Shown one piece after another: positions 1 to 15,221 of a stretch of DNA of 26,883 nt. The stretch comes from a virus. The position numbers were made by a program, and so were the translations under genes. The first letter of the stretch is position 1, and every line of letters begins with the position of its first letter. A model generated the notes under the pieces. That model saw only the letters and a program-made list of their open reading frames with translations. It was not told where the DNA came from and did no database searches. The DNA is taken from IMG/VR virus record IMGVR_UViG_3300037090_000575, positions 1 to 26,883 of that record. One strand, 5' to 3'.

Positions 1-525
1 ATGGAATATATGAGTGAAAGAAAATTAGTTGAGATGGAGAATGAGCAAGGATATTGGGCTCGTGGTACCAAAGTATGGGGAGTAACAGGAAGTCACCATG
101 TTGATTTTATGATGGAGCACCCTGATTATTTTGATACTACTACCAAAGAAATTCTTAATATGTTTAAAGCTAATAATGAAACTCTAGAGCATGATAAAAT
201 AACGAGAGAACAGTTAATTTTCATTGCATGTAAACAAGGTTGGATTAGGGTTCGTCATTATATTACTCCACAAAATTTTTGGTCTATTCAATGTGATAAA
301 ATTAAGCTTAGAGAAAGAACCATACGAGATTTTATTGAAGATTTTGCTCTTAAAAATAAGCTTATGGAATATAATGCTAAATTGATTATCATTGGATTGG
401 ATTCTAATGATGAAATGGATATATACAAATCTGAGGAAGGTGGGGCTGTTGCTTTCCTTAGAAAGGTAGGAATGGAGGAAAACTCTGAAGTAAAATTAGA
501 TGATTTGCTAAGGGAGTATAAATAA
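1..525 (+). CDS. Phage hypothetical protein, GYW-family paralogue, 5' end cut by window edge
   Basis: At least 174 aa, function not recognised. The sequence aligns along its whole length with the proteins encoded at 24678-25166 and 25181-26347. Shared blocks are GYWARGTKVWGVTGSHH (about residues 17-33), GWIRVRHYI with WSIQCDKIKLR (about 80-103), and an acidic end with SEEGGAVAFL. In both relatives the segment matching the first Met here (MEY) lies about 12 residues inside the protein, after an N-terminal block with DIKSDF or DILSDF. The true start is therefore probably upstream of the window. The stop overlaps the next start by one base (TAATG), so the two are probably co-translated. No membrane segment or signal peptide is visible. 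Family membership is certain from the window itself; any role is unknown. Confidence 0.8.
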   Translation: MEYMSERKLVEMENEQGYWARGTKVWGVTGSHHVDFMMEHPDYFDTTTKEILNMFKANNETLEHDKITREQLIFIACKQGWIRVRHYITPQNFWSIQCDKIKLRERTIRDFIEDFALKNKLMEYNAKLIIIGLDSNDEMDIYKSEEGGAVAFLRKVGMEENSEVKLDDLLREYK

Positions 526-719
526 TGGACAAAAACTATGTAATTAAAATCCAGAATGGTAAAGCCCATCGATATGATACTCATGGTGCTCATTATAATA
601 CTTATTTTTATGATAATGTAGTATCAGGATTAATCCAGAATGATGAAGTGATATTGACATTAAAGGATGGACATGTTAAGATATTGGGGTTGAGTGGAAC
701 ATTAAAACGTTCAATATAA
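525..719 (+). CDS. Small hypothetical protein, 64 aa
   Basis: The ATG lies inside the stop of the preceding gene (TAATG), with an AAGGGAG ribosome binding site 8 bases upstream. The protein is short and probably mostly beta-strand, with alternating hydrophobic residues (YVIKI, EVILTLKDGHVKILGL). There are no cysteines and no membrane segment. It is followed directly by another ribosome binding site (TAAGGAGA) serving the ORF at 730. The function is not recognised. Its reality rests on start spacing, operon position and codon use like its neighbours. Confidence 0.7.
   Translation: MDKNYVIKIQNGKAHRYDTHGAHYNTYFYDNVVSGLIQNDEVILTLKDGHVKILGLSGTLKRSI
654..682 (+). promoter_or_regulatory. Weak candidate sigma-70 promoter
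   Basis: A perfect TTGACA (654-659) is followed after 17 bases by TAAGAT (677-682), which matches the -10 consensus at four of six positions. It lies inside the 64-aa gene and would start transcription about 40 bases before the ORF at 730. It is listed because other perfect TTGACA boxes in the window have much better partners at the same spacing. Confidence 0.25.
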
Positions 720-729
720 GGAGAAATAA

Positions 730-858
730 ATGAGTAGAGAGCAAATGATAGTTTATCTTGATAATATCCAGCCTATTAAGGATAAGAGTTATCAACCTTT
801 GGCGGATAGTCTCACTAACTATACATGGCGTATTTCATTTATTGTATTGAGAACATAA
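730..858 (+). CDS. Short ORF, possibly a 5' gene remnant, running into a homing endonuclease gene
   Basis: This 42-aa ORF has a strong ribosome binding site (AAGGAGA, spacing about 5) and starts MSREQMIVYLDNIQPIKDKS. The last 11 codons lie inside the GIY-YIG gene that starts at 825, in another frame, so only about 31 residues are specific to it. The upstream signal is that of a normal, well-expressed gene, but the product is very short and its tail (after about WRIS) is simply the endonuclease DNA read out of frame. One reading is a gene whose 3' part was replaced when the endonuclease inserted. The other is a genuine tiny gene. No matching 3' fragment was found elsewhere in the window. Confidence 0.5.
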   Translation: MSREQMIVYLDNIQPIKDKSYQPLADSLTNYTWRISFIVLRT

Positions 859-1766
859 TAAACCACAAAAAATATATAGGGCAAACATCTAAAACTATTG
901 AAGAAAGATTTTGTGCCCATAAAAAATGCATGATTAGAAGAAAGAATCAAGTTTTGTATGATGCTATGAATAAATATGGTATAGATAATTTTATTATTTA
1001 CCAAGTGGAAGAGTGTAATAAAGAGAATTGTAGTGAAAAGGAACAGTATTGGATAAAACAATATAACACCACTAATAGGGATTTTGGCTATAATATGACT
1101 GGTGGTGGAGAGAAATGTAATAAGCTAGAAGGATGGTCAGAAGAAAATAAAAAAGAACTGTATAAGAAACAAGCTATGAAAAGAAAGAAATCTGCTCAAA
1201 AGTTAGGGGTAGAACATTTTAATCAATTACCTGAGAATAGGGTAAAATTAGGTAAACATCTGAAAGGAAAGACCTTTGAGGAAGTTTATGGAAAGGATCG
1301 TTCTGATGCTATCAAGCTTAAAATAAGTAGAACCTTAAAAAATATTGGGCATAAGCCCCCTATACACCATGGAGGGAATCATGGGTATCATCTTACTAAT
1401 GAGGATAAGCAAAAAATGAGCGTTGCTCGTAGAGGAAAGACATATGAAGAGATATATGGAATCACAACTGCTAAGGTGATGAAGGATAAAAAAGTAGAAG
1501 TTAGCCTTAAAAGACAGTTCAATATCAAAAAAGAATCACTAAAGATAAGAATAAAGGTTCTAGATTATCTTAGTAATAATAAGGGAGTCTCTTACAAAGA
1601 TATCCCTGTAGGGAAGGCTTCTATTCATAATATTAGAACACTTCTACGAGAAATTGGTATTGACAATTATCAATTTTTTAAGTATAATTTCTTAGGAAAT
1701 GATAAAGATTGGTGGGAATTCTTCCAATCTAAAATTTTATTTTTAAGGAGTAAATATGCAGAATAA
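825..1766 (+). CDS. GIY-YIG homing endonuclease with two GKT-type DNA-binding repeats
   Basis: This is a free-standing homing endonuclease of 313 aa. The N-terminal GIY-YIG nuclease domain spans about residues 1-95: the first motif is FIY (4-6), the second KYIGQT (17-21 region), with Arg28, and the catalytic Glu is probably Glu73 in KEQYWIKQYN. The middle of the protein has two copies of a GKT(F/Y)EE(V/I)YG motif (about 148-156 and 204-212), typical of the NUMOD-like DNA-binding linkers of phage endonucleases. The C-terminus (about 240-285) may form a helix-turn-helix. There is no ribosome binding site before the ATG, which lies inside the ORF at 730, so expression may depend on coupling. The last 11 bases overlap the RNA ligase start, and the 3' end carries a promoter for that ligase. 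Confidence 0.92.
   Translation: MAYFIYCIENIINHKKYIGQTSKTIEERFCAHKKCMIRRKNQVLYDAMNKYGIDNFIIYQVEECNKENCSEKEQYWIKQYNTTNRDFGYNMTGGGEKCNKLEGWSEENKKELYKKQAMKRKKSAQKLGVEHFNQLPENRVKLGKHLKGKTFEEVYGKDRSDAIKLKISRTLKNIGHKPPIHHGGNHGYHLTNEDKQKMSVARRGKTYEEIYGITTAKVMKDKKVEVSLKRQFNIKKESLKIRIKVLDYLSNNKGVSYKDIPVGKASIHNIRTLLREIGIDNYQFFKYNFLGNDKDWWEFFQSKILFLRSKYAE
1660..1688 (+). promoter_or_regulatory. Perfect-consensus sigma-70 promoter inside the endonuclease gene, for the RNA ligase
   Basis: TTGACA (1660-1665), 17-base spacer, TATAAT (1683-1688): all twelve consensus positions match at the optimal spacing. Transcription should begin near 1695, giving a leader of about 60 bases that contains the AAGGAG site before the RNA ligase ATG at 1756. 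The DNA also codes for the endonuclease C-terminus (around residues IDNYQFFKYN). Confidence 0.75.
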
Positions 1767-3030
1767 CACAGCAGTAGTGATGAAAATTAGTAGGATAGAA
1801 CCTATAGTAGGAGCAGATAACATTGTCAAAGCTATACTTAGCCTAGAGGGAATAGAGCAGGGGCAGGTAGTAGTAGGTAAAAATGATTTTTATGAAGAAA
1901 ATAATGTAGTATTTTTTGACTCCAATATGATATTAAACTTAGATTTTATTAAGGTAGTAGATAAGCAATCTCCTGATTATGGTAAGGAGGAGTTTAAGTC
2001 AATCGGGAGCTATTTATCCAAAGGTAATCGGGTAAAGGTAGTGAGACTCAAAAATACTATTTCACTGGGGCTTGCAATAGGGGTAGGCAAGTTTAAGCCC
2101 TACAATGTTGATCTTGAGGAAGGGAATAGTTTTACTTCCCTTAATGGTGTTGATGTCTGCCACAAATATGTGCCTCCACAGAAGCAGATTCAGGTTCAAG
2201 GTAAGAAGGGAAGGAAAGTAAAGAAAACTTCTCGTCTAATCCCTGATCAGTTTCATTTCCATATTGATACTTCACAACTATTGCGAAATGTACATAAGTT
2301 TAATCCTAACCAGATAATCAGTATCAGTCGGAAAATACACGGAACTTCAGCTATCTGTGCTAATGCTCTAGTAAAGAGGAAATTAAACCTGCTGGAGAAA
2401 ATAGCAAAGAGTATAGGAATAAAGATACAGGATACTGAGTACGATTATCTCTATGCATCCAGGTCAGTAGTCAAGAACGATGCTACTACTTCTGGCTTCT
2501 ACAAGGAAGATATCTGGACTGAGGCTGGAAAAAAATATTTCCTAACTAAACTTCATGCTGGTGAAACTGTCTACTATGAGATAGTGGGATTCCTCCCTTC
2601 TGGCAATGCTATCCAGAAGGGATATCGTTATGGTTGTATACCTAATACGTATAAAGTTGCTGTCTATAGGATTACTGCTACTGGTACTGATGGTACTGTG
2701 TATGAGTATTCATGGCAAGCAATGAAACAGCGCTGCGAAGAACTTCAGGTGCCTATGGTAGAGGAATTCTACTATGGCAAGGCTTCCGATTTCCCTCTAT
2801 ACTCCAATCCTACCAATCCTGAGTATTGGGTTAGCTATTTTATTAATGAATTGAAGGCTAATTATTTGGAAAAAAAGGCCGAAGATTGCGATGGTAACCC
2901 TGATGAGGGTATCGTTATCAGGATCGAGGGTATGAACATCGAGGCTTACAAGCTGAAGTCTGAAGCATTCCTCTTGAAGGAGTCAAAGGCACATGAAGAA
3001 GAGGTTATCGATATAGAAGAACAGGCATAA
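1756..3030 (+). CDS. ATP-dependent RNA ligase, DRB0094/Rnl5-like
   Basis: This 424-aa nucleotidyltransferase is predicted to seal RNA ends bearing 5'-phosphate and 3'-OH through an enzyme-AMP intermediate. Motif I is RKIHGTS, with Lys193 as the adenylylated lysine. A motif Ia-like YASRSVVKN lies at about 233-241, motif III/IIIa YYEIVGFLP at 273-281, motif IV DEGIVIRIEG at 383-392 and motif V EAYKLKSEAF at 396-405. The roughly 180 residues before motif I fit the N-terminal OB-fold extension of the Deinococcus-type ligase, which distinguishes it from T4 Rnl1 and Rnl2. An AAGGAG site precedes the ATG. The upstream endonuclease overlaps by 11 bases, and a consensus promoter lies about 70 bases upstream. 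A terminator follows. Family assignment is strong; the natural substrate (cleaved host or phage tRNA is likely) is inferred. Confidence 0.9.
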   Translation: MQNNTAVVMKISRIEPIVGADNIVKAILSLEGIEQGQVVVGKNDFYEENNVVFFDSNMILNLDFIKVVDKQSPDYGKEEFKSIGSYLSKGNRVKVVRLKNTISLGLAIGVGKFKPYNVDLEEGNSFTSLNGVDVCHKYVPPQKQIQVQGKKGRKVKKTSRLIPDQFHFHIDTSQLLRNVHKFNPNQIISISRKIHGTSAICANALVKRKLNLLEKIAKSIGIKIQDTEYDYLYASRSVVKNDATTSGFYKEDIWTEAGKKYFLTKLHAGETVYYEIVGFLPSGNAIQKGYRYGCIPNTYKVAVYRITATGTDGTVYEYSWQAMKQRCEELQVPMVEEFYYGKASDFPLYSNPTNPEYWVSYFINELKANYLEKKAEDCDGNPDEGIVIRIEGMNIEAYKLKSEAFLLKESKAHEEEVIDIEEQA

Positions 3031-3056
3031 AGGCTCCCCCATGCCCTTTTTAATTA

Positions 3057-3082
3057 GGCTACCAGAAATGGTAGCCTTTTTT
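3057..3082 (+). terminator. Rho-independent terminator after the RNA ligase
   Basis: A perfect 7-bp stem GGCTACC/GGTAGCC encloses a six-base loop and is followed by six T. It ends the RNA ligase transcript. The next gene starts only 26 bases further on with no promoter visible between, so its expression needs readthrough or an unrecognised phage promoter. Confidence 0.85.
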
Positions 3083-3108
3083 ATTACTAAATAAGTAGAG
3101 GTATTTTT

Positions 3109-3324
3109 ATGATAGATATGATGTTTGTTACCCAGCTCCAATCTAATTTCTCTAACAATGATATTGAATCTTTTGATGAGACTACTCTCTCTATAGATGG
3201 AACTCCCTATAATCCGTCACGATGGATAAATGAAATAGGCATGTATTCACAATTAACTTTAGGGTTACAAGAACAAATACTCAATGATATTACTAGCGAT
3301 ATTATTGTATTTATGAATAGATAG
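3109..3324 (+). CDS. Small phage protein, member 1 of a four-gene tandem family (71 aa)
   Basis: Function not recognised. It shares a module with the proteins at 3363, 3725 and 4462: a hydrophobic N-terminal helix (FVTQLQSNF), a short beta region with L.IDGT, then RWINEIG.Y..LT.GLQEQI and a C-terminal helix. It is the shortest member and has no extension after the module. A TAGAGG ribosome binding site lies 7 bases before the first ATG; a second Met at codon 4 is possible. It follows the ligase terminator closely. Tandem arrangement suggests duplication; a virion or assembly role is only a guess. Confidence 0.75.
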   Translation: MIDMMFVTQLQSNFSNNDIESFDETTLSIDGTPYNPSRWINEIGMYSQLTLGLQEQILNDITSDIIVFMNR

Positions 3325-3362
3325 TCTCATTTTACCTACTAATTATATAGAGAGGAGATTTT

Positions 3363-3716
3363 ATGATGGTTTCAGCAGCCTTTGTACGTGCATTGAGAAA
3401 TAATGGTAACACTGCATATACATTTAAGATAAATTTTAGTGGTACTATTATGCTAGTACAGTCAGGAACATACTCCCCAGTGGCGTTCATTCCTCAAAAG
3501 TGGATCAATGAAATGGAGACCTTCCCTAATTTGCAATCCTCATTGCAAACAGCAATCCTAACTGATTTCACTTCTACTATCACTACAGCAGCAGCTTCCA
3601 ACTACTTTACGTCCTCTCAAGCTTCTATCAATGCTCCAGTATTAGTAAATAACTCATTATTAGTTGTAAATAATGGTTCTGATGGCATTACTGGTGATCC
3701 TATGACTATTCAATAA
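3363..3716 (+). CDS. Small phage protein, member 2 of the tandem family (117 aa)
   Basis: It begins MMVSAAFVRALRNNG, matching the N-termini of the neighbouring paralogues. The core has LVQSGTYSPVAFIP followed by KWINEMETFPNLQSSLQ, which lines up with RWINEIGMYSQLTLGLQ in member 1. The C-terminal tail is rich in Ala, Ser, Thr and Asn and ends GITGDPMTIQ, like the GDTIIIQ end of member 3. A GAGAGGAG site precedes the start. No cysteine and no clear membrane segment. Function unknown; low-charge, Ser/Thr-rich tails are common in phage structural proteins, but that is only suggestive. Confidence 0.78.
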   Translation: MMVSAAFVRALRNNGNTAYTFKINFSGTIMLVQSGTYSPVAFIPQKWINEMETFPNLQSSLQTAILTDFTSTITTAAASNYFTSSQASINAPVLVNNSLLVVNNGSDGITGDPMTIQ

Positions 3717-3724
3717 GATATTAA

Positions 3725-4057
3725 ATGATGATAAGCTTAACGTTTCTACACAGAATAAAAAACTCATTTCCTGCCTATACAGTAAAACTTATAAATCATG
3801 GCACTACTTTTGAATTACAATCAGGAACCAATATACCTATAGTATTTATTCCTACAGTGTTCCAATCTGAAATAGAAAATTTTACTAATTTAACTTTGTT
3901 ATTACAAAATTATATTGTTTCAGCTATTTCTACTGATATAACTACAGCTATAAATCAGAATTATTTTGTTATACCTCCTCCCTCTATTACTACTGTACAA
4001 TATAGTACTAAAATATACGGTAATAAATTACCAGGAGACACTATAATCATTCAGTAA
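3725..4057 (+). CDS. Small phage protein, member 3 of the tandem family (110 aa)
   Basis: It starts MMISLTFLHRIKNSF and has FELQSGTNIPIVFIP, aligning closely with LVQSGTYSPVAFIP of member 2. Then FQSEIENFTNLTLLLQNYI matches the WINEMETF block. The tail ends PGDTIIIQ. Members 2 and 3 are the closest pair, and only 8 bases separate them. No good ribosome binding site is visible before the ATG, so coupling to member 2 is likely. Function unknown. Confidence 0.77.
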   Translation: MMISLTFLHRIKNSFPAYTVKLINHGTTFELQSGTNIPIVFIPTVFQSEIENFTNLTLLLQNYIVSAISTDITTAINQNYFVIPPPSITTVQYSTKIYGNKLPGDTIIIQ

Positions 4058-4087
4058 TCCTCTAATACTAAGTATGCAGGAGTTTTA

Positions 4088-4321
4088 ATGTATACAATAA
4101 CAGAGTATAACTATGAGGGTGTAGCAGAGGTACAGTGTAATAAATGCGACACTTCCTTCAGTATAGAGTTTTCTGGTGATGATGGGCAAAAAATAAAAGA
4201 TTCGATAAAAGAGTCTTTATTAGAGTTGGGTTGGACTAATAATTTTTGTCCACAATGCTCTGAGGAACTAACTGAACATGGAGACTCAGACGAATCAGAC
4301 GAATTTAATACCGATTGTTAA
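4088..4321 (+). CDS. Small zinc-ribbon protein (77 aa)
   Basis: Two CxxC pairs, C17-N-K-C20 and C54-P-Q-C57, are separated by 33 residues, as in a treble-clef or zinc-ribbon fold. The rest is acidic, with a Asp/Glu-rich tail (GDSDESDEF). A CAGGAG site lies 6 bases upstream of the ATG. It interrupts the tandem family and its 3' end overlaps the start of the 53-aa ORF at 4278. Metal binding is a safe inference; whether it binds nucleic acid or protein is not known. Confidence 0.8.
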   Translation: MYTITEYNYEGVAEVQCNKCDTSFSIEFSGDDGQKIKDSIKESLLELGWTNNFCPQCSEELTEHGDSDESDEFNTDC

Positions 4322-4439
4322 AGATTTATTAGAAGATAAAGGCGATACTTTGGATTACAATAATCCTAAATTTACTTGGGATTTAGTAGACGAAGGAAGT
4401 CAAACAATAAATAAAGACAATCCATTTTCAGGATTATAA
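4278..4439 (+). CDS. Small hypothetical protein, 53 aa
   Basis: An open frame starts at the ATG inside the zinc-ribbon gene (44-base overlap, other frame) and fills the otherwise empty space before the gene at 4462. It begins METQTNQTNLIPIVKDLL and ends NPFSGL. It is hydrophilic with a possible amphipathic helix near residues 10-20. The nearest ribosome binding site (TGAGG) is about 12 bases upstream, rather far. Composition and position support coding, but it is short and unrecognised. Confidence 0.5.
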   Translation: METQTNQTNLIPIVKDLLEDKGDTLDYNNPKFTWDLVDEGSQTINKDNPFSGL

Positions 4440-4461
4440 CTAACTAAATAAGGAGATTTAT

Positions 4462-4929
4462 ATGTTTATTAGTCATGAATTATTTACTCGGCTTAAAGCT
4501 GATATGGACAAGGACTTAGTAGAGCTTACCGATGGTGGTAAAACGCTTCTAATCAATGGTAAGAGTTTAGCTATTCATCTATGGGGAGAAGTAGCCGAGA
4601 GGTTCCATCTTCTAACCAAGGAAGCCAAAGACGAATTGTATGCTAAAATCAAAGCAGAGGCAGTAAAGTTATCTAATGAAGCTAAGGCTAAGATTGATGC
4701 TATTGATGCTACTATAAAAGCTGAAGAAGTTAAGGTAGCTGCTGATATTGATAAAGGTATTGCTGCTGTTGCTTCTGATGTAGAGAAAGAAGCTTCTACT
4801 GTAGCTGTAGATGCAACTAAGGAAGTTGATAAAGTAGCTGTAACTACAGAAAATGTAACTGTACAAGTAGGAACTACTGTAGATACTACTGTTGATACTG
4901 CTGATGCTGCTGTTCAAAGCATGAAATAA
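4462..4929 (+). CDS. Tandem-family member 4 with a long Ala/Val/Asp-rich helical tail (155 aa)
   Basis: The N-terminal 55 residues carry the family module: MFISHELFTRLKADM, then ELTDGGKTLLINGKS, then LWGEVAERFHLLTKEAKDEL, in the same order as the three genes upstream. From about residue 55 the protein changes to a low-complexity region rich in Ala, Lys, Val, Asp and Thr (runs such as KAEAVKLSNEAKAKIDAID) that should form a long amphipathic helix, ending in a TVDTTVDTAD repeat. A strong TAAGGAG site precedes the start and a terminator follows. The tail looks like an independent addition to the module. Function unknown; a rod-like structural protein is possible. Confidence 0.8.
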   Translation: MFISHELFTRLKADMDKDLVELTDGGKTLLINGKSLAIHLWGEVAERFHLLTKEAKDELYAKIKAEAVKLSNEAKAKIDAIDATIKAEEVKVAADIDKGIAAVASDVEKEASTVAVDATKEVDKVAVTTENVTVQVGTTVDTTVDTADAAVQSMK

Positions 4930-4933
4930 ATTA

Positions 4934-4958
4934 AAAGCCCTTTGTAATGAAGGGCTTT
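4934..4958. terminator. Bidirectional terminator between convergent genes
   Basis: A 9-bp stem AAAGCCCTT/AAGGGCTTT with a 7-base loop sits between the + gene ending at 4929 and the - gene whose stop is at 4960. On the + strand it is followed by a T run (total six T at 4956-4961). On the - strand it is followed by TTTTAATTT. It overlaps almost the entire convergent gap and should stop transcription from both sides. Confidence 0.8.
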
Positions 4959-4959
4959 T

Positions 4960-6246
4960 TTACAATCCAAATAAAGTTGTATTTTCTTGTAAAATGTTTT
5001 GAGAAGGCAGCATTACCATATCAAATATTTTATTATGAAAATCGTAATATTTATCATAATAAATAGTATATCCCTCTCTGGATAATCTATCATGAAATAC
5101 TTTATCCTTTATATCACTCCACGATATACTAAAAAGGTATCTCGACAAATTTGCCATAAAACCATAGTTTAGCTGCCCATTATAGATGCGTCTATCATCG
5201 CCCCATATAACAAAGTCTACACTAGGGGGGGGAATCATACGTTGTATTATGCTTGCTATATAATACTGATATGTCATATAAACCATATCATCAACAGTAC
5301 TACCTGCTAATTTACATAATTTCCTAACTTCTTCCCCTTTATTATATTCCTTATCATTAATATAGAATCCAGTGCCATTCATAATAGAAAAATCTAAATA
5401 TAGAAAATCAGCGTTATTCCTTACATCTACCCCTTTACCTATTTGTTTTATTATAATCTTTTCGTTTACTTCCTGCCCTGGTAGTATGCTCCAGTGCCTT
5501 TTGCCTTCCTTTTTCTCTTTCTGACGTATATCATAATGGTGAATAACCTCTATAGTATACTTGTCTAGTCTATTTATTTGTTGGGTTACACAAACTTTTT
5601 TCTCAGGGGGCATTTTAATACCACCACACTTTTGTATCCCTACTCTAGCATGAGCTATAATAGATGTCATATCCGTAAGAGTGAATGGTAGGGGTAAATT
5701 TATAATAAGATCTGTAGAACTATAACAAGTATAATCTTCAAAAACAGAAGTTTTCTTACTATTAGCTAAGATAGCTATTTTTTTCCATTTGAATTTAGGA
5801 TTATAGTTAATAAAATAAATTAGAAATTTATTTAGCTTTTTACAATATGACTTCCAGGCAAAAGCACTGTTTTCAGCAGTACACCACGTACCCTCTATAC
5901 CATTTATATATTTAGATGCTATCAATTTAGAGGCTTCATGTGTGAGAGGAACATATCCTATTATATTATCTTGATTATATACCTCAACATAGTCCTCATT
6001 TGGAATTAAACCTTCAATACCACTATTTTTTACATTTTTCTTTTTGGCTGTCCTTGATACACTATTGATAAGGGAAGTAAAATCTTCATATTTTAGGTTC
6101 TTCCAATTATTCCAATCTATCTGTCCTTCCTCATTTGGGTAAACATTGAAGTATTGAATTATTTGTGATTTCTGCTCAGGAGACAATGCAGGAATTTTAC
6201 TTATTATATGGTCTTTCTTTTCTGTTAATATCATATTAAAATCCAT
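4960..6246 (-). CDS. Phage hypothetical protein, mosaic family member A (428 aa)
   Basis: Not recognised by name. Residues 1 to about 165 match the protein encoded immediately upstream (6236-7606): IPALSPEQKSQI, IDWNNWKNLKYEDF, then SRTAKKKNVKNSGIEGL, GYVPLTHEASKLIAS, a Trp-Cys pair (WC at 121-122) and YFINYNP. The second half keeps weaker similarity to the C-terminal domains of both upstream proteins (IKQIGKGVD, GTGFYI, YTIYYDKYYDF) but lacks their conserved WVST...LDLDYG tail. The start codon lies within the 3' end of the upstream gene (11-base overlap, TTATGGATTTTAA) with no ribosome binding site, which implies translational coupling. Proximity to the terminase suggests a late, perhaps virion-associated gene. 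Confidence 0.8.
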   Translation of the reverse strand: MDFNMILTEKKDHIISKIPALSPEQKSQIIQYFNVYPNEEGQIDWNNWKNLKYEDFTSLINSVSRTAKKKNVKNSGIEGLIPNEDYVEVYNQDNIIGYVPLTHEASKLIASKYINGIEGTWCTAENSAFAWKSYCKKLNKFLIYFINYNPKFKWKKIAILANSKKTSVFEDYTCYSSTDLIINLPLPFTLTDMTSIIAHARVGIQKCGGIKMPPEKKVCVTQQINRLDKYTIEVIHHYDIRQKEKKEGKRHWSILPGQEVNEKIIIKQIGKGVDVRNNADFLYLDFSIMNGTGFYINDKEYNKGEEVRKLCKLAGSTVDDMVYMTYQYYIASIIQRMIPPPSVDFVIWGDDRRIYNGQLNYGFMANLSRYLFSISWSDIKDKVFHDRLSREGYTIYYDKYYDFHNKIFDMVMLPSQNILQENTTLFGL

Positions 6247-7606
6247 AATCTAAGTCCAATTGATGGTTATAAGCTCTTTGTGCTGGTGTTGATACCCAGT
6301 CAGTCCCTGCATATTTGTCGGGGGTTTCCCAGTCATAATCATCCCTATAGTATACATAATAAGATACTTCAGCAGAATCATATAAAGTGTCTTGTTTACA
6401 TTTACTTACTTTAATATAGCGACCCAGAATATTCATTAAGTACTCATCAATAGAAATATCATTTTTAATTAAAATATAACTATATTGCAGAGAGGAATCA
6501 GCATCTAGATGATGAAGAATTTTTTTAGCATTTATTGGATCTAATAATCTCAATGCCGTTCGTTTTATTTCATAATCATCAATATCGGTGATGTCCCCTC
6601 GTAAATTATTAGAAGCTTTTTGAGCATCATCAGGAGTATAATCATTCTCATACACAATATATATACCTCTACCTCTGCCGGTAGCAAATTTTCTCCCATC
6701 ATCCATAGTCAGCTCATCTAGGAAACCTAAATCAGCATTATCTATACCTTCTCCTACCCTTTGAATTTCGAATGAAGAAGATAAACCTTCAACACTAGTA
6801 TCTTCATCCTCAATATCATCACCAATTCGAACTAGTTGAACAAAAGAAACCCCCCCTTTTAGAATATCATTTTCAATTTCCTCCTGTATATAACAATCAA
6901 TAAAATACTCTTTATCTAACTCAGAGCGGGCGTCCCCTGCATCCATTATTAGTACTAAAGCTTTATCAATCAAAGATTTCATCTTATCTACATTAAAGAT
7001 AAAATTAGGGTATTTGTTAGGAACATTATATCTAGCGGTAGCTGACATTGAACTAAATATTACTTCATCCTTCCAATTCCAGGCTTGATAGTCAAGATTT
7101 AGCCACATTCTTATTGCTATTTTACCCCATGTGGAATCAGGATTATAGTCTACAAGATAAAGAAAACGATTATTATTATCGCCCTCTTCAGATACATAAT
7201 TATCCCAAAAGTTTCTATTATTGTGCAGTGCAACACACCACTTACCTGTTGTTTTACTAGCACCCACATAAGAAGATGCTATCATTTTTGATGCTTCCCA
7301 ATCCAGCGGGCAATATCCTACAATAGTACCACTGTTATAGGCAATAATATAATCAGTTCCTTCATCTAATCCGTTAATACCAGTATTCTTTACCATTTTC
7401 TGTCTAGCAGTTTTACTAATTTGAGATAATAATGGAACAAAATCATTATAGGTTAAAGTACGCCAATCATTCCAATCTATTTTAGATTCATAGTTTGGAT
7501 GTATTTTGAAGAAATCCTTTATCTGTTTTTTCTGTTCATCACTTAAAGAAGGTATCATGTTTATCATAGCTTCTTTTGTTTCTTGTAATAGTGTATTATA
7601 ATCCAT
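6236..7606 (-). CDS. Phage hypothetical protein, mosaic family member B (456 aa)
   Basis: It combines the N-terminal domain shared with the downstream gene (residues 1 to about 165, including DWNDWRTLTYNDF, GINGLDEGTDY, GYCPLDWEASKMIAS and GKWC at 121-124) with a C-terminal domain (about 278-456) shared with the upstream gene at 7596-8822. The C-domain match includes GRGIYIVYENDYTPDDA, a Y.VYYRDDYD block and the last 20 residues, which begin WVST and end with HQLDLDYGF. An acidic linker joins the two. There is no Shine-Dalgarno site; the ATG overlaps the upstream stop by 11 bases (TTATGGATTATAA). No catalytic motif is recognised. This gene is the bridge that shows the three proteins are recombined from shared modules. 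Confidence 0.82.
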   Translation of the reverse strand: MDYNTLLQETKEAMINMIPSLSDEQKKQIKDFFKIHPNYESKIDWNDWRTLTYNDFVPLLSQISKTARQKMVKNTGINGLDEGTDYIIAYNSGTIVGYCPLDWEASKMIASSYVGASKTTGKWCVALHNNRNFWDNYVSEEGDNNNRFLYLVDYNPDSTWGKIAIRMWLNLDYQAWNWKDEVIFSSMSATARYNVPNKYPNFIFNVDKMKSLIDKALVLIMDAGDARSELDKEYFIDCYIQEEIENDILKGGVSFVQLVRIGDDIEDEDTSVEGLSSSFEIQRVGEGIDNADLGFLDELTMDDGRKFATGRGRGIYIVYENDYTPDDAQKASNNLRGDITDIDDYEIKRTALRLLDPINAKKILHHLDADSSLQYSYILIKNDISIDEYLMNILGRYIKVSKCKQDTLYDSAEVSYYVYYRDDYDWETPDKYAGTDWVSTPAQRAYNHQLDLDYGF

Positions 7607-8822
7607 AATCTAAATCCAATTGATGGTCATATTTTCTCTGTGCTGCTGTTGATACCCAATCATCATTATTTCTCTTTGTTCTATTATATTCTTCTTGGTA
7701 ATAAATATTATAGGTATTACCAGAATAATCCTCAACGTCTAGCTCTATATATGCTTTAGTTCGTTTGAATTCCTCTTTATTATAGAACTTAAAATTATTG
7801 CTCAAAAAATCTTCCATCCACGACTCTAATGCTTCTTGTTTTACTATGATATAATCATAAGAAGGATGATCAAGATACTCTTTTAAATTTCTTTCTAACT
7901 CTAACTCGGAAGAGTCAATATCCATACTCTCATCATAAGTCCATATTCTACTTGCTTCTCTCTCTGCATCTTCCATAGTATAATCTTCTGTATACTCTAT
8001 ATATAGCCCTCTACCATTATTGATATTAAATCCTTCAAATTCATTTAACATATCTAAGTGATCTGGTAAAGGCTCTTCATTTGGTAATAATTGATATATA
8101 TCAAATGAAGAAGAAGTTTCGTTAGTAGCATTTTCTTCTATATCATAATCATCACCCTGGAAATAATATAAACTATATTGACAATAACCAGCAAAATGTG
8201 GTGAAGGTTCATCTTTTATTTCACCGTAAAGACTACATTCAAGATAGAGTATCTTAGGCTGTAAATCCTCTGTTTCTACATAAGATAATGGTTTTATCTG
8301 TCCTGTTCTATATGCGACTAAAACTAATCCATCTTGTCTACCTGTAAATACTATACCTGCGCATAATAAAGTGAAATTTTTTATATTGCGAGTACACTCA
8401 CGAGCCACATCTGAGGTAAATTTGGTATTATTAGTTTTTCTTTGATATTCTTCTCGTTCTTTAGGGGTTAATAACATCTTATAGTAAAGGAATTGATAAT
8501 CAATAAAATTCTGTTCAGTGAATTGTCTATTAGGATATCGTTTATTATGCTCTCTAAATAGGGGTGTTTTCACAAACTCATTATAGTCAAAGAAAAAGAA
8601 ATGACTTAAATTTACTCCAAACTTTACTACATATTGTCCATATTTGGATTGCATGTCTGAAGTAAGCTGAGACTCTAAATCATAAGTGGCATAGAAGCCT
8701 CTACCATAGTAGTCTCCTCCTCCTACTTTAAATCCTTCTTTATTTATTGAGTCTATTAGTTTTTCTTCATTAGTTCTATGGTATACCGTAGCTACATTAC
8801 CATAAATAGTCTCATTAAGCAT
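7596..8822 (-). CDS. Phage protein with ADP-ribosyltransferase-like N-terminus and mosaic-family C-domain (408 aa)
   Basis: Residues 10-75 resemble the start of an ADP-ribosyltransferase (ART/PARP) fold: VYHRT (His15), a short helix ending NKEGFKVGGG, then YGRGFYATYDLESQ (Tyr44), spaced like the His and Tyr of H-Y-E enzymes. A later block, GIVFTGRQDGLVLVAY (156-171), could form the region where the catalytic Glu would lie, but I cannot identify that Glu, so activity is uncertain. From about 235 to the end is the C-domain shared with the next gene, including GRGLYIEYTEDYTMEDA and the tail WVSTAAQRKYDHQLDLDYG. The ATG at 8822 has no strong ribosome binding site and lies 12 bases after the terminase stop. 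The fold assignment is an inference from short motifs. Confidence 0.72.
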   Translation of the reverse strand: MLNETIYGNVATVYHRTNEEKLIDSINKEGFKVGGGDYYGRGFYATYDLESQLTSDMQSKYGQYVVKFGVNLSHFFFFDYNEFVKTPLFREHNKRYPNRQFTEQNFIDYQFLYYKMLLTPKEREEYQRKTNNTKFTSDVARECTRNIKNFTLLCAGIVFTGRQDGLVLVAYRTGQIKPLSYVETEDLQPKILYLECSLYGEIKDEPSPHFAGYCQYSLYYFQGDDYDIEENATNETSSSFDIYQLLPNEEPLPDHLDMLNEFEGFNINNGRGLYIEYTEDYTMEDAEREASRIWTYDESMDIDSSELELERNLKEYLDHPSYDYIIVKQEALESWMEDFLSNNFKFYNKEEFKRTKAYIELDVEDYSGNTYNIYYQEEYNRTKRNNDDWVSTAAQRKYDHQLDLDYGL

Positions 8823-8834
8823 ATATAATTAGTC

Positions 8835-10928
8835 TTACTGAAACCCTAATTTTCTAATCAAGTCTTCGGTGTTTTTCTTTATATCATCGTTAGTTAGGAT
8901 TACTTTATTTTCATCCCAAATCTGTAATAATGATTGTCCATCAGTGGCTAAATACTTATGAGCAAGATAAACAGCACCAGCAACAGCATCACTACAGTCC
9001 TTGGCATTTATACCTAGTACAGAGGTATCCCAGGCATAATCCGCAGTAGCAGGATTGGGGGAATCACCCATAGTATGATTTATAGTGAGAGTTTTACTCC
9101 GAGGACGCTGTGTGATTCTCAATGACTTTAGATTATTTTTTATGAATACATTTCGTCCCATCTTCAAATTCCCCTGTTCTATTTGTTGCGCTAGAAATAG
9201 GTAGGGGTCCATAGTTTCATCTACGGATATATGGTCCATTTCAATTTCCGCTCTCTCTAGGTGCTGTAATGCTGCTTCGGACTGAAAAGTATCGTATGAA
9301 CCCATTATTATTGGCATTTGTCCTTTAGTAAATACATCGAATATGAATTCTTTAATAGCATCTAGATTGATTCTTCCTCCGAAAGGATGTATAGGTAAAA
9401 CAAAGTCTACTATATACATGATATCATGTTCTATATCTAATGCTTTATCAGTTTTCTTTCTTTCCACATGTACAAAAGCTATGGCAGACATATCATTAGA
9501 TACTGATTGGTCAATATGAAACACCCGAGGAATCCCCGGTTTATAGTAAAAATGATAACCAAATCCTGCTTTCTCAAAAAGAGTATCCCGTATGACTTTC
9601 CATATCAGTTCATGAGGTTCCATACGAGCATCAACATGAAGACAATGTTCTATAGATTTCATCTGTGGTACAAAGCAATTATTTATTTTATCATAATCAT
9701 AGAATAATTTATCCAAATTTCCTTGTGGTATGCCAGCAAAGTCCTTTAATGATTTATGTAAATCATCATGGAATAATTGATACATACCATTAGGGTCACT
9801 AATAGTTCCATAGGGAACCCTAATAATATCACTTTCATCATATCCTTGAATATTATTGAGAATAGTGGGGGGTTTTCCCGATCCTCCTTTGAATACAGGA
9901 AATGTATGTTCTAGATTAGAAAATTCTTCTGGTTGCCATTCCCATTTAGCCCCTTTTATAATAAAATTTTTAGGGCTATTAGGTGCATCAAACATACAAT
10001 AAGTATCAATAGGGGATTCCAAATCATTAGGTGAAGAGTCTAAAATAGTTCTACCCCAGTAGTTTCCCATCAAACGAGAATCAACACGACGCTTCATATC
10101 ATTAAAAAGTCGCATAACAAACTCATCACTCTTTCCTGCTTGTCGGAAAAATGTTATCTCTGACATAGTACCACATATAATAGTCAGCCCTAGTATAGTA
10201 ACAGGATTTGAAGCTAACTTATAGTGAAGATTATTAGAGAATTGTAAAGCAGATACACCATACCGGGAGGCTGTAGTCCAATATAGAGTATCTATTTTCT
10301 TCTCCCGTTGATAATCCCGTTCTCTTTTTATCATATCCTCTCTAGTTCGTACCTTACAAAAGAAGGTAGAGCCTTCAAGCATATTTATGAAAGGGGATAA
10401 CAATAATTCTGATGTTTTACGTAAATTATAAGAACATAATACAAAGCTCAATGTCTCTGAAGACATAATTCCAAAATATTTCTTTGGGTCCCGCATTAAT
10501 GCTAAATGAACAGTCATATAGAGATTTATCAATACTGATAATGTAGTTTTGCCTGAACCAATGTAGGTATATAAAACAGCATCTCTATAGGGTTCCTTGT
10601 CGTTCATGAATTCAATAAACCATTTTCGTACTCGTGGATAAATGGATTCAGCGACAGGTCCTAGATACTTAGCAGTTAGAAATTCCTCTGGTGTAGGGGG
10701 TTTTAATCTATAATTTACTCTCCAACTATTATTTAATAAATCCAATTTGGCTTTAGCATTTAAATTATCATTACTTATTATTGAGTCTAAAGCTGTCTGT
10801 ATCTTACTGATATCTAATTGATTATAAACATCAAACATATCTATAAGCTCAGTATCCCCTTCTAATACATCAAAAAGAATGTCATTTAAATTCTCTTGTT
10901 TATTTATATCTATTAAATTTGTATTCAT
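8835..10928 (-). CDS. terL: Terminase large subunit (TerL), ATPase and nuclease
   Basis: This is the DNA-packaging motor, which pumps phage DNA into the prohead and cuts the concatemer. The ATPase domain has a P-loop in YTYIGSGKTT (Lys near residue 127 from this start) and a Walker B-like LTIICGTMSEI with Glu near 257. The C-terminal RNase H-like nuclease has three acidic positions: VFHIDQSVSND (Asp near 473), MGSYDTFQSEAA (Asp near 546) and KDCSDAVAGAV (Asp near 647). At 697 aa it is at the large end for TerL, as in T4-like and larger phages. The ATG at 10928 forms an ATGA overlap with the preceding gene's stop; an in-frame TTG at 10934 is an alternative. No small terminase is seen in the window. 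Assignment is strong from the combined motifs. Confidence 0.93.
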   Translation of the reverse strand: MNTNLIDINKQENLNDILFDVLEGDTELIDMFDVYNQLDISKIQTALDSIISNDNLNAKAKLDLLNNSWRVNYRLKPPTPEEFLTAKYLGPVAESIYPRVRKWFIEFMNDKEPYRDAVLYTYIGSGKTTLSVLINLYMTVHLALMRDPKKYFGIMSSETLSFVLCSYNLRKTSELLLSPFINMLEGSTFFCKVRTREDMIKRERDYQREKKIDTLYWTTASRYGVSALQFSNNLHYKLASNPVTILGLTIICGTMSEITFFRQAGKSDEFVMRLFNDMKRRVDSRLMGNYWGRTILDSSPNDLESPIDTYCMFDAPNSPKNFIIKGAKWEWQPEEFSNLEHTFPVFKGGSGKPPTILNNIQGYDESDIIRVPYGTISDPNGMYQLFHDDLHKSLKDFAGIPQGNLDKLFYDYDKINNCFVPQMKSIEHCLHVDARMEPHELIWKVIRDTLFEKAGFGYHFYYKPGIPRVFHIDQSVSNDMSAIAFVHVERKKTDKALDIEHDIMYIVDFVLPIHPFGGRINLDAIKEFIFDVFTKGQMPIIMGSYDTFQSEAALQHLERAEIEMDHISVDETMDPYLFLAQQIEQGNLKMGRNVFIKNNLKSLRITQRPRSKTLTINHTMGDSPNPATADYAWDTSVLGINAKDCSDAVAGAVYLAHKYLATDGQSLLQIWDENKVILTNDDIKKNTEDLIRKLGFQ

Positions 10929-11446
10929 TTCCAATATTCATCTCTATAAAATACAATATTATCATTACATATACGTTTAATTAAATTAGGCTTGAAATAA
11001 CAACCTACTTCAGCAGTATGTAATTTATGCGCTTGTCTACGATAGAATATTGAATATTCCGGTAATTTATAATAATGGTTACAATCAAACTCTAATACTC
11101 CATAATCTTTGTTTGTTGCTAAACAATATTCTTTAGTATCATCAATAAGGTAAGATGGAACAGCAAAATAAAATTTATTAGGGCATATTATTGGGTCTGA
11201 AGTTTCATCATAAAGTGCTGCTTCTACAAATTTTTGATGCTTTTCTTTCTTATGCTTACTTTCATTCAATAGATCTGACTTTGATATCTTTATTTCTATC
11301 TCTATGACTTCTCCTGTAATATCATTAATAGCGATAACATCTGCTATTCCCTGAGAGTAACTTAATTCAGAACAACATAAATACCCTTTTTTAAATCTAT
11401 AAAAACTCATTAAAGCACATTTAATAACATTACTATTAACTTCCAA
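10925..11446 (-). CDS. PD-(D/E)XK-type nuclease, probable (173 aa)
   Basis: The core motif fits a restriction-endonuclease-like fold: Glu27, then GIADVIAI (Asp36), then EVIEIEIKISKSDLL with Glu51-x-Lys53, followed by a basic helix KHKKEKHQKF and a FYFAVPSYLI strand. This order (D...ExK, then a Lys/His-rich helix) matches small nucleases of the VRR-Nuc/MmcB-like kind. The start is a TTG with an AAGGAG site 9 bases upstream; the first in-frame ATG is 12 codons later and has no such site. It is the first gene of the minus-strand operon, and its stop overlaps the TerL start (ATGA). The context suggests DNA processing linked to packaging or recombination, but the substrate is unknown. Confidence 0.7.
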   Translation of the reverse strand: MEVNSNVIKCALMSFYRFKKGYLCCSELSYSQGIADVIAINDITGEVIEIEIKISKSDLLNESKHKKEKHQKFVEAALYDETSDPIICPNKFYFAVPSYLIDDTKEYCLATNKDYGVLEFDCNHYYKLPEYSIFYRRQAHKLHTAEVGCYFKPNLIKRICNDNIVFYRDEYWK

Positions 11447-11597
11447 CTTATTAGTCTCCTTAATAACTAATTATTTAGTTGAATAGGGGATTTCATATGT
11501 ATAAGCTTATCCTATTGTAAATAATAGGACTAATAGCACTGAATATAGGCTAAAGGCTTTGTATTACCTATTACAATAAAATCAAATGGAGGATTTT
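11447..11597. promoter_or_regulatory. Divergent intergenic region with an inverted repeat
   Basis: About 150 bases separate the minus-strand terminase operon from the plus-strand acidic protein, so both promoters should be here. I see no sigma-70 match of the quality found elsewhere; TTGAAT with TATAAG at 15 bases on the + strand is poor. An inverted repeat TCCTATT (11510-11516) / AATAGGA (11523-11529) with a 6-base loop could be an operator or hairpin. The lack of a host-type promoter before late genes would fit use of a phage-specific late factor. Confidence 0.4.
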
Positions 11598-13007
11598 ATG
11601 AGAATTGAAGAAAGAAAGAGAGAACATTTATGGTGGATGAATGAGAACGAAGAGTCTCTTCACGATGGTAGTAAATTGGAAGAGGCTTATGATCCTAAAA
11701 GATTAAAGCCAGGATATGATGGTAGAAATGGCCCCGATGTAAAGACATTATATGCTAAGAAAGGCGAAGCTCGTTTTGATAAACTTGGTGCCAATGGCGG
11801 TGATAATCAAGAAGTTTCAAAGCCAAAGAAAGGCGCTGCTGATACTAAAGACCTCTCAGTAAAAGAACGAAGAATGAGAGAGTTTGAAGATGAAGAGGGA
11901 ATGGACAATCTTGAGGGAGAGGGCATGGGTGGAGAGGGCATAGATGATGATGTTCCCCCAGAGATGGAAGAGCCCATGGATGATGAATTCGGAGATGAAG
12001 AGGGAATGGAAGGCGAAGGCGAAGGTGGCGACGAAGTAGCTGATGAGGTTACCGTTGAAATCCAAGGACAGAGATTCAAATTAGTTCCAGAAGAGCCCGA
12101 AGAGGGGATGGAAGGGGATGAATTTGGTGATGAGGAATTTGGTGATGAAGGTGGACAAGGACTCAATACAGAGCCTCCTCCTATGGGCCAAGTTGAACCT
12201 GAGGACGACGATGTTGAATTCCCTGAAGCTGCTCCACGTAAAAGAGTAATGAAAGAGAGTGCAAAGTCAAAGAAAGAGAAAGCTAACTATGTTAGAAAAT
12301 TATTGAAAATGAAGGACTTTGCTGAATCAGAATTAAAAGAACTCTTCACTGGTGATTATGTTGTAACTAAAGGTCAGAATGGTGGATTAGCAGGAATGAA
12401 CTTCAAACCAGTAACTGGTGATACTAAGTATGCTGTTGTAGCTCGTGCTGCTACAGGTGATCAATACACTGTTACTGATTCTAAATCACCTTATGAGCCT
12501 GGGTCAGATTCTAAGGGACAGACTGGTGGTGGTAAAGTAAATAAGCTTGCTGCTCCTACTGTAGAATCCTTCAAGAAGTGGCTTCAGAGTACGTATTTAA
12601 ATGAGGAAGAGGTAGGGGCTGAGGATGGTCAAAATGATCCTGGAAAGGATTCTCAAGATTTTAATAAAGAGGATTTGTTTGGACAGGTAACACCCATTTC
12701 TCCTTTAGACCCAAAGGATTACCCAGCACAACCAGAAATGGTAGGAATGGGAAACCCTGGAAAGCAGTCTAAACAGGATGCTAACCCGGTATCAGATACT
12801 ACTGTAATGACGATGGCTAAGACAGCTCGGGCAGGTGAGAGCACTACTACCACAAAGGCCCGCTTAGAGGCAGTTAAGAGGGCTCGTGTAGCTCGTAGAC
12901 AGCAAGAGTCAGCAATAGTAAAACCGGATGGAAAAGTAAGTGTGTTGGATGAAGAACTGGATTTTAAAAAACTGATGAATGGAGACTATTCTCATCTATC
13001 AGAATAA
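11598..13007 (+). CDS. Acidic, Gly/Glu-rich phage protein, possible virion or scaffold component (469 aa)
   Basis: The start at 11598 is chosen because GGAGG (11588-11592) lies 5 bases before it; the in-frame ATG at 11586 overlaps that site. Residues about 70-215 are extremely acidic and repetitive (runs such as EFGDEEGMEGEGEGG), broken by a short VTVEIQGQRFKLVPEEP strand pair. A basic helical segment follows (KSKKEKANYVRKLLKMK), then a Gly/Thr-rich part and a basic C-terminal helix (KARLEAVKRARVARRQQE). No cysteine and no catalytic motif. Its location beside the terminase operon with its own terminator, and the alternation of acidic and basic segments, resemble prohead core/scaffold or DNA-mimic proteins, but this is inference only. 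Confidence 0.8.
   Translation: MRIEERKREHLWWMNENEESLHDGSKLEEAYDPKRLKPGYDGRNGPDVKTLYAKKGEARFDKLGANGGDNQEVSKPKKGAADTKDLSVKERRMREFEDEEGMDNLEGEGMGGEGIDDDVPPEMEEPMDDEFGDEEGMEGEGEGGDEVADEVTVEIQGQRFKLVPEEPEEGMEGDEFGDEEFGDEGGQGLNTEPPPMGQVEPEDDDVEFPEAAPRKRVMKESAKSKKEKANYVRKLLKMKDFAESELKELFTGDYVVTKGQNGGLAGMNFKPVTGDTKYAVVARAATGDQYTVTDSKSPYEPGSDSKGQTGGGKVNKLAAPTVESFKKWLQSTYLNEEEVGAEDGQNDPGKDSQDFNKEDLFGQVTPISPLDPKDYPAQPEMVGMGNPGKQSKQDANPVSDTTVMTMAKTARAGESTTTTKARLEAVKRARVARRQQESAIVKPDGKVSVLDEELDFKKLMNGDYSHLSE
11880..12165 (+). repeat. Low-complexity GDEEG/EGEG-coding repeat
   Basis: Within the acidic gene the DNA repeats short units such as GATGAAGAGGGAATGGA and AATTTGGTGATGA, coding for runs of Glu, Gly, Asp and Met. 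It also produces spurious open frames on the opposite strand. Such tracts expand and contract by slippage, so length may vary between related phages. Confidence 0.7.
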
Positions 13008-13030
13008 ATAAAAATACTATGTAAAAATAA

Positions 13031-13057
13031 AGGGAGGGTTAAACACCCTCCTTTTTT
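13031..13057 (+). terminator. Rho-independent terminator after the acidic protein gene
   Basis: Stem GGAGGGT (13033-13039) / ACCCTCC (13045-13051), 5-base loop, followed by six T. The stem can be extended by two weaker pairs. It separates the acidic protein gene from the downstream endonuclease-RtcB unit. Confidence 0.88.
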
Positions 13058-13104
13058 ATTTGTATTGGTTAGAAACTCTGGAAGGTGGAAACCACTAATT
13101 ATCT

Positions 13105-13848
13105 ATGAACAATAAGTCATATAAGTTAGGGAAAACCTGTTCTATTTGTGGAAAGCAAATAATAGATAGTAATAAAGGTGGAAAGTGTTCTCTCCATAGA
13201 GATCGAACAGGAAAAAATAATCCTTTCTATGGTAAGCATCATGATAAGAAAACTATTGAAGCTACAAAAATAAAATTAAAAGAAATATCTAAAGATTTAT
13301 GGAAAGATAAGGGGTATAGGGAAAAAGTAATAAAAGCTATCTCTAAACCTCGAAGAGAGGGTTTTAAAAAAGAGCAAAGTGAAAGAATAACTCAATGGTA
13401 TAGAGATAACCCAGAGCAGTTAGATATAAGAAGAGAGGCTATGAAAGAATCTTGGAAGTCTGGGAGTATTTCCTATAATGAGCATTCTTCTTACAATAGC
13501 AGTAAAATAGAAAAATCTCTATTATATGATATACAACAATTTTGTTCAGAAGCACAAGAACACTATACTATTAAAACTACTGAAAAATGGTATTTACCAG
13601 ATATCTACATTGAAAGTAAAAAAATAATAATAGAATTATATGGTGAATATTGGCACGCTCACTCTGATCGTTACCAAGAAGAAGATGTTGTTCACCATAA
13701 TGTAAAGGCTAAAGATATTTGGAGCAAAGATAAAATAAGAGAAAAGGTCTTGACAGAACTAGGGTATACTGTTATTATTATATGGAGTGAGAAATATAAA
13801 AAGGATAAAGAAAATACTTTGTCCTATATTAGGAGTTTATTATGTTAG
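13105..13848 (+). CDS. Homing endonuclease with zinc finger, NUMOD3-like motif and Vsr-fold (EDxHD-type) nuclease domain
   Basis: The protein has 247 aa. An N-terminal zinc finger uses C12-x2-C15 and C28-x2-H31. A NUMOD3-like DNA-binding motif follows (GKNNPFYGKHH, 36-46). The C-terminal half is a very-short-patch-repair-like nuclease: KIEKSLL (Glu136), WYLPDIYI (Asp166), IIIELYGEYWHAHSDRY (Glu177, His184, His186), and ELGYTVIIIWSEKY at the end of the fold. This composition matches phage homing endonucleases of the EDxHD class. There is no close ribosome binding site before the ATG. The last 7 bases overlap the RtcB start, and the gene carries both RtcB's promoter and its AGGAG site. Confidence 0.85.
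   Translation: MNNKSYKLGKTCSICGKQIIDSNKGGKCSLHRDRTGKNNPFYGKHHDKKTIEATKIKLKEISKDLWKDKGYREKVIKAISKPRREGFKKEQSERITQWYRDNPEQLDIRREAMKESWKSGSISYNEHSSYNSSKIEKSLLYDIQQFCSEAQEHYTIKTTEKWYLPDIYIESKKIIIELYGEYWHAHSDRYQEEDVVHHNVKAKDIWSKDKIREKVLTELGYTVIIIWSEKYKKDKENTLSYIRSLLC
13750..13778 (+). promoter_or_regulatory. Strong sigma-70 promoter inside the endonuclease gene, for rtcB
   Basis: TTGACA (13750-13755), 17-base spacer, TATTAT (13773-13778): eleven of twelve consensus positions at optimal spacing. Predicted start near 13785 gives a leader of about 57 bases before the RtcB ATG at 13842. The same DNA codes for the LTELGYTVII core strand of the endonuclease. Confidence 0.7.
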
Positions 13849-14981: not shown

Positions 14982-14991
14982 GGAGTTGAAT

Positions 14992-15210
14992 ATGACTGTT
15001 AAAGACAAAGAACTATTTATTAATAATTTCCTCAATAGCATGAGGAACACATTCCTTAGTGAAATAGAAAAGTTCCCTGAGGAATGGGATGGAATAGAAC
15101 TACGTGCATACATAGCAGGGGCATTCAAGTATGAAAATAGCTATTCTATGGGCAGGAAAAGAAAAGCTAACTATAATAATGAGCGGTATGTAAGGAATTT
15201 GAAATACTAA
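14992..15210 (+). CDS. Small hypothetical protein, 72 aa
   Basis: The start at 14992 is preferred because TAAGGAG lies 7 bases upstream; an in-frame ATG at 14974 falls before that site, inside rtcB. The protein is mainly helical (LFINNFLNSMRNTFLSEIE) with WDGIELRAYIAGAFKYE in the middle and a basic C-terminus (MGRKRKANYNNERYVR). It probably belongs to the rtcB transcript. Its shape recalls small phage DNA- or RNA-binding proteins, but no family is recognised. Confidence 0.72.
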   Translation: MTVKDKELFINNFLNSMRNTFLSEIEKFPEEWDGIELRAYIAGAFKYENSYSMGRKRKANYNNERYVRNLKY

Positions 15211-15221
15211 AGGAGAATACT

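Follow-up and report, generated by a model that had tools for sequence, protein, structure and literature searches.

A GIY-YIG homing endonuclease gene apparently lodged within the start of a phage RNA ligase gene, with a predicted ligase promoter in its last codons

Introduction

What becomes of a phage RNA ligase gene when a homing endonuclease gene settles at its start, and from where could the ligase then be expressed? Phage T4 offers a precedent for part of this question. Its seg (GIY-YIG) and mob (HNH) genes are described as inserted near essential genes, with embedded promoters said to favour their retention; segG contains gene 32 promoters, and segA, segE, mobB and mobC are similar (PMC2988022). 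For segG, extension of the reading frame into the recipient's regulatory sequence has been proposed (PMC535899). That phage homing endonuclease genes may carry promoters of their neighbours, and be kept because of them, is already a published principle (PMC2988022).

The DNA analysed here, called the window below, is a stretch of 26,883 nucleotides from a virus (IMG/VR record IMGVR_UViG_3300037090_000575). Near its left end a GIY-YIG endonuclease gene runs into an RNA ligase gene, and an earlier note on this DNA proposed that a perfect sigma-70 promoter within the endonuclease codons drives the ligase. Our analysis points to a larger event that this note missed: the endonuclease gene appears to lie within an old ligase start, with the ligase restarting after it.

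Results

The locus and its relatives

The DNA of the window also occurs in contigs of 86.7 kb and 109.5 kb (the latter called G002), with 100% identity across the first 6,000 bases compared, while window positions 1-4200 gave no DNA-level match to named phages. The informative relative is contig IMGVR_UViG_3300044470_000192 (G003 as a whole; L004, L024 and L043 are stretches of it), which carries the same genes as the window with 75-77% DNA identity at the flanks (L024/L043). The features of the window that matter here are as follows.

1-525, + strand: gene of unknown function that opens the operon; its promoter falls just beyond the edge of the window, 36 bases upstream of the gene in G002
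525-719, + strand: 64-aa gene, unknown function, upstream of the probable relic
654-682, + strand: TTGACA-N17-TAAGAT (10/12), a weaker promoter-like sequence ahead of the relic and a possible old ligase promoter
730-858, + strand: ORF of 42 codons that aligns colinearly with the L024 ligase start and is likely a relic of the resident one
825-1766, + strand: GIY-YIG homing endonuclease gene, 313 aa, with a NUMOD3-like motif (PF01541, phrog_314)
1660-1688, + strand: predicted promoter TTGACA-N17-TATAAT, in endonuclease codons 279-288
1745-1750, + strand: AAGGAG, read from the sequence as the ribosome-binding site for today's ligase start
1756-3030, + strand: RNA ligase, 424 aa, with N-terminal OB and nucleotidyltransferase domains (phrog_968, PF21189, structure model, PDB match 5cot)
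1756-2160, + strand: part of the ligase gene encoding the OB domain, diverged from the endonuclease-free relative (43-45% aa identity, about 0.42-0.60 at the nucleotide level)

The endonuclease gene

The endonuclease matched PF01541 with an E value of 6e-9 (36.5 bits against a cut-off of 22.6), which identifies a GIY-YIG catalytic domain, and phrog_314 over residues 1-263 (E 2e-26); NUMOD3 scored just below its cut-off (20.0 against 20.4 bits). No clear ribosome site precedes its ATG. An Rfam scan of positions 500-2400 to E 5 returned a single irrelevant weak match and thus no group I or group II intron around the ORF.

Matches to family profiles end before the predicted promoter, at residues 263 and 259, so that the promoter lies in an uncovered tail, and past residue 263 the tail matched no family profile and no named phage protein. 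The structure model of the endonuclease was poor (mean pLDDT 65), too poor to serve as a basis for conclusions; for what it is worth, the tail is predicted to be partly helical, with pLDDT about 80 at residues 301-312. The tail may thus be a genuine part of the enzyme, which counts against an overrun of the reading frame. A second GIY-YIG gene of the window (23436-24035, - strand) immediately precedes a gene for an 867-aa protein, part of which is cytidyltransferase-like; its final 300 bases contain no promoter scoring 9/12 or higher.

An empty site and a remnant of the ligase start

At the corresponding place in L024 no endonuclease gene stands between the 64-aa gene and the ligase gene, so that the endonuclease is present or absent between the same neighbours at one site. 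The L024 ligase begins straight after a leader with AAGGAG that the window shares, and the place of window 654-682 is taken there by TTGACT-N17-TAAGAT. Where the L024 ligase starts, the window has the 42-codon ORF at 730-858. Matches to the L024 ligase start as good as that of this ORF arose in only 2 of 5000 protein shuffles and 2 of 3000 DNA shuffles, although the match spans only about 16-25 codons. Past the leader, the similarity continues in the ligase frame, with the shared pattern YLxNIQxI. Judging from this similarity, 730-858 is apparently the remnant of the resident ligase start. An arrival of the endonuclease ahead of an intact ligase, as one might picture it from the earlier note, is not supported: the ligase start of the empty relative matches the 42-codon remnant upstream, and the present ligase begins at a second start, with an N-terminal domain that has diverged.

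The ORF at 730-858 has its own AAGGAG (718-723) and overlaps the endonuclease start by 34 bases. Since the endonuclease lacks such a site, the ORF may now help to translate it. One could go further and regard 730-858 as nothing but an unrelated leader ORF aiding endonuclease translation, the endonuclease having merely entered intergenic space before the ligase. This would suit an endonuclease ATG that overlaps the ORF by those 34 bases and has no ribosome site, and T4 endonuclease genes are described as overlapping upstream ORFs by 11-24 bases (PMC2988022). Yet the shared leader reaches to the start of the ORF and the YLxNIQxI similarity goes on in the ligase frame, so that we consider an unrelated ORF highly improbable. 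The roles of relic and leader could, moreover, both hold.

The ligase and its diverged N-terminal domain

The downstream gene matched phrog_968 (E 5e-49) and PF21189 (29.7 bits against a cut-off of 27), with PF09414 below its cut-off. In its structure model (mean pLDDT 87.7), an OB-like domain reaches residue ~138 and is connected through a loose linker (141-160) to the catalytic domain. The best PDB match was 5cot, an RNA ligase of Naegleria (E 4.5e-16; TM 0.70 by target length and 0.58 by query), with which, by the model, the window ligase shares the N-terminal OB and nucleotidyltransferase domains, at 16% identity and an rmsd of 6.4. Residues K193, H195 and G196 are invariant among 44 sequences. 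The predicted architecture, an N-terminal OB domain, a nucleotidyltransferase fold and a lysine motif, is thus Rnl5-like, and nick-sealing activity is putative; the nick-sealing RNA ligases of the Naegleria type are those that we take to be the Rnl5 group.

Compared with the ligase of the empty relative, the protein falls into two parts. Residues 1-135 are identical at 55 of 122 positions, whereas the remainder is identical at 241 of 289 (83%); over the part encoding the OB domain amino acid identity is 43-45%. DNA identity climbs from about 0.42-0.60 to 0.73-0.83 near codon 134, blastn first aligns the two genes at position 2156 (~codon 134), and this step falls near the end of the OB domain, at the domain border. 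The dip is not unique, since the C-terminal part holds a second stretch of low identity (alignment columns 341-380). Nevertheless, among 2,415 pairs of 71 distinct ligases, the pair of window and relative had the largest gap of N-part below C-part identity (these 71 came from 79 proteins, namely the window's and those of 78 of 80 loci kept from 98 relatives).

A third ligase, L044, helps to place the change. Its C part is 53% identical to that of the window and to that of the relative (L043) alike. For the N part, identities were 57% between L043 and L044, 43% between the window and L043, and 36% between the window and L044, and the pair L043-L044 shows no bias between its parts (N 57%, C 53%). 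In trees of the C part, the window and L043 were joined with support of 100/99, and the grouping of L043 with L044 was rejected (AU p 0.004). The best tree of the N part instead grouped L043 with L044 and left the window outside (support 89/63 and 89/85 in two trees), with the grouping of the window and L043 not rejected (AU p 0.28 and 0.22). Path length between the window and L043 was 2.7 for the N part against 0.26 for the C part.

On these comparisons, the part encoding the OB domain was likely replaced together with the arrival of the endonuclease. Replacement from a donor is the best reading of the data and stops short of proof; the rival keeps the insertion but makes the OB domain native: a duplication of the resident 5' end, or entry of the endonuclease between tandem copies, would have left one copy as the relic and another that then evolved fast. 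Codons were identical at 30 of 51 shared residues in the N part and at 121 of 233 in the C part, above chance in both. The agreement being no lower in the N part, it is not what a distant donor predicts, and it speaks for duplication, as do the tree test that left the window beside L043 and the fact that, among the sequences compared, the nearest N domain to that of the window is still that of L043 (43%). On the other side, duplication would need change about tenfold faster in one domain of one lineage, going by the path lengths, with no such bias between L043 and L044, and the step is abrupt at a domain border. We regard duplication, the rival of replacement, as doubtful.

A donor for the N part did not emerge from the collections searched: scans of viral contigs recovered, apart from the identical contigs, nothing but relatives at 41% or less, of two scans of bacterial and archaeal genomes one found nothing and the other a single match at 32%, and GenBank phages contributed 6 records at 26-28%. 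Endonuclease-like matches were present in 7 of 78 ligase loci, none of them less than 1 kb upstream of the ligase on its strand.

The predicted promoter within the endonuclease codons

The geometry given in the earlier note was confirmed. The hexamers TTGACA (1660-1665) and TATAAT (1683-1688) lie on the + strand, 17 bases apart, within codons 279-288 of the 313 of the endonuclease; the endonuclease stop codon (TAA, 1764-1766) is 11 bases into the ligase, whose ATG is at 1756-1758; and a transcript start near 1695 would give the ligase a leader of ~61 bases, as against the roughly 60 claimed. The leader RNA itself showed no structure beyond chance (z -0.24).

Such a site could be a chance product of AT-rich endonuclease codons and remain unused, the ligase being expressed only by read-through from upstream. 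Indeed, although 1660-1688 is the sole 12/12 match in the window (spacers 15-19), 4 of 100 shuffles of the window also contained a match of this quality, and weaker promoter-like matches in 1-14000 were at chance level (68 found, 66.2 expected). However, the site has the sigma-70-type sequence, TTGACA and TATAAT at a spacing within 16-18, in the form of the phage's other promoters. A weight matrix was built from 17 other sites of the phage and its relative (all 13 consensus matches of 11/12 or better outside ORFs in G002, and 4 from G003, with 1660-1688 excluded); its form is TTGACA-N16-G-TATAnT, which adds to the consensus the spacer and a G just before the -10. By this matrix 1660-1688 ranks 12th among 218,946 positions of G002, a rank partly built in since the matrix sites were themselves selected for consensus, and in 20 shuffles of G002, where only sites beginning with TT were scored, no site scored as high. 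The site thus fits the phage's own promoter class, on a par with its other promoters, and is followed, after ~61 bases, by a start codon that has a good ribosome site.

That the ligase needs this promoter is less evident. The best-scoring promoter of G002, itself one of the matrix sites, precedes the operon's first gene by 36 bases, and window 1-3055 holds no + strand terminator-like site. Therefore, the ligase need not depend on the embedded promoter and could also be transcribed from the upstream one, a point that favours chance hexamers as well.

GIY-YIG genes that end at promoters in related phages

Other GIY-YIG genes bear on the same question. In G003, the last eight codons of the gene at 2146-2979 are resident sequence that includes the -35 hexamer of the next gene's promoter, and the empty site in G002 carries this hexamer too. 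The gene at 14753-15448 (L024 5248-5943) takes in the first four bases of a promoter's -35 before it stops, and G002 has this promoter without the endonuclease gene. A third gene (9217-10158) overlaps a -35, with no empty counterpart seen. Across G002 and G003 together, a promoter starts in the last 110 bases of 4 of 7 GIY-YIG genes but of only 11 of 193 other ORFs (p 6e-4; the limit of 110 bases was set after the site had been seen, and other limits with a slightly different rule gave p 0.003-0.037). This association argues against chance hexamers.

No general rule follows from it. Among other viral contigs, matches of 11/12 occurred in 3 of 52 GIY-YIG tails against 18 of 475 other ORFs (p 0.34), and at 10/12 in 4 of 52 against 42 of 475, without enrichment; the 52 tails came from 80 loci kept of at least 425 relatives, duplicates and tails too near a contig end having been dropped. 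Ending at a promoter is therefore a habit of this phage group at most, and the lack of enrichment elsewhere is what chance hexamers would lead one to expect. Weighing both sides, we think it distinctly unlikely that the hexamers are an unused product of chance. In one GIY-YIG gene of an unrelated viral contig (L193 2459-3361), a 12/12 TTGACA-N17-TATAAT begins within the final 15 bases.

The proposal that the endonuclease brings or preserves its neighbour's promoter is thereby upheld in part. A promoter of the phage's class lies wholly within its 3' codons and points at the ligase, and preservation gains from the two G003 genes that end inside a -35 shared with the empty G002 sites. By analogy with these genes, the endonuclease frame of the window probably overran the promoter of the ligase with which it travelled.

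Other genes of the phage

Besides the Rnl5-like ligase, the window encodes an RtcB-type tRNA-splicing ligase (13842-14981, + strand; phrog_1075, E 1.6e-123), and ARAGORN predicted 19 tRNA genes in G002; a role of the phage ligases in tRNA repair is a guess. A tRNA with the amber anticodon CTA was predicted in both related contigs (L030 18908-18978, - strand; L035 3631-3702, + strand). Amber recoding was considered on this account and set aside, since TAG terminates 22 of 112 ORFs of at least 100 aa and is thus an ordinary stop. The phage also encodes a peptide deformylase (18762-19211, + strand; phrog_2890, E 8.8e-39).

Discussion

The reading that we favour, at a probability of roughly 0.55, is that the endonuclease, the promoter, the ribosome site and a replacement N-terminus of the ligase came as a single block, the endonuclease frame having overrun the promoter of a donor ligase. 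The GIY-YIG gene would make up a single unit with the beginning of the ligase gene that follows it. It would have settled, in a donor phage, just upstream of the ligase promoter, with a reading frame that continued past the promoter, the leader and the ribosome site and took in the first four codons of the ligase. On homing into the present lineage, break repair would have copied the block from the endonuclease through the OB domain of the donor ligase. The left join would lie ~20-30 codons into the resident ligase, whose start was left as the relic at 730-858, and the right join near codon 134 (about 2156), the point at which similarity to the relative's DNA returns. Both the relic and the identity step are seen in the DNA; the copying between them we infer. 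The ligase would now be made from its own promoter (1660-1688) and ribosome site, plus read-through from upstream. Since deletion of the endonuclease would remove the promoter and start of the ligase, its retention would be favoured.

More broadly, and more tentatively, an endonuclease and its victim's replacement 5' part (promoter, ribosome site, start codon and first domain) may travel as a self-sufficient block, each transfer swapping a substrate-binding domain and locking the invader in; we hold this to be somewhat less probable than its opposite. If true, insertion of a selfish gene into a coding sequence need not carry a cost, and phage repair enzymes can have individual domains reassorted by homing. 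The locus would then be a testable case of co-conversion that yields a chimeric enzyme together with its promoter, mirroring at the N-terminus what is known from fungal mitochondria. In the open-licence literature searched, we found no such N-terminal arrangement, promoter and start included, described for a phage.

How does this arrangement compare with known systems? As in T4 segG and gene 32, a promoter of the downstream gene, predicted here from sequence, is embedded in endonuclease codons on the same strand. In the T4 cases named in PMC2988022, however, the neighbour keeps its own start, whereas the window has an old-start remnant upstream, a second start and a diverged domain. The endonuclease gene mobE of phage Aeh1 likewise interrupts a coding sequence for a nucleic-acid enzyme, nrdA, and similar splits are described; there both halves are described as being used as separate polypeptides, while in the window the downstream copy alone (424 aa) looks complete (PMC2988022). 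Endonuclease genes of ICP1 and its relatives are reported to mark borders of sequence exchange between phages, but that work describes larger islands and swaps within endonucleases, and here one domain of the neighbour appears to have been replaced (PMC10448857). There is a likeness, too, with mobile ORFs of fungal mitochondria (atp6 of Allomyces; atp6, atp9, cox2 and nad3 of Glomus), which brought a substitute C-terminus and displaced the native end (PMC3630166). The window, too, would have an endonuclease ORF with a substitute gene end, and 730-858 answers to the displaced remnant of the native one. In Allomyces and Glomus, as described there, the C-terminus was replaced and the promoter kept, whereas in the phage it would be the N-terminus, so that promoter, ribosome site and start codon must come too.
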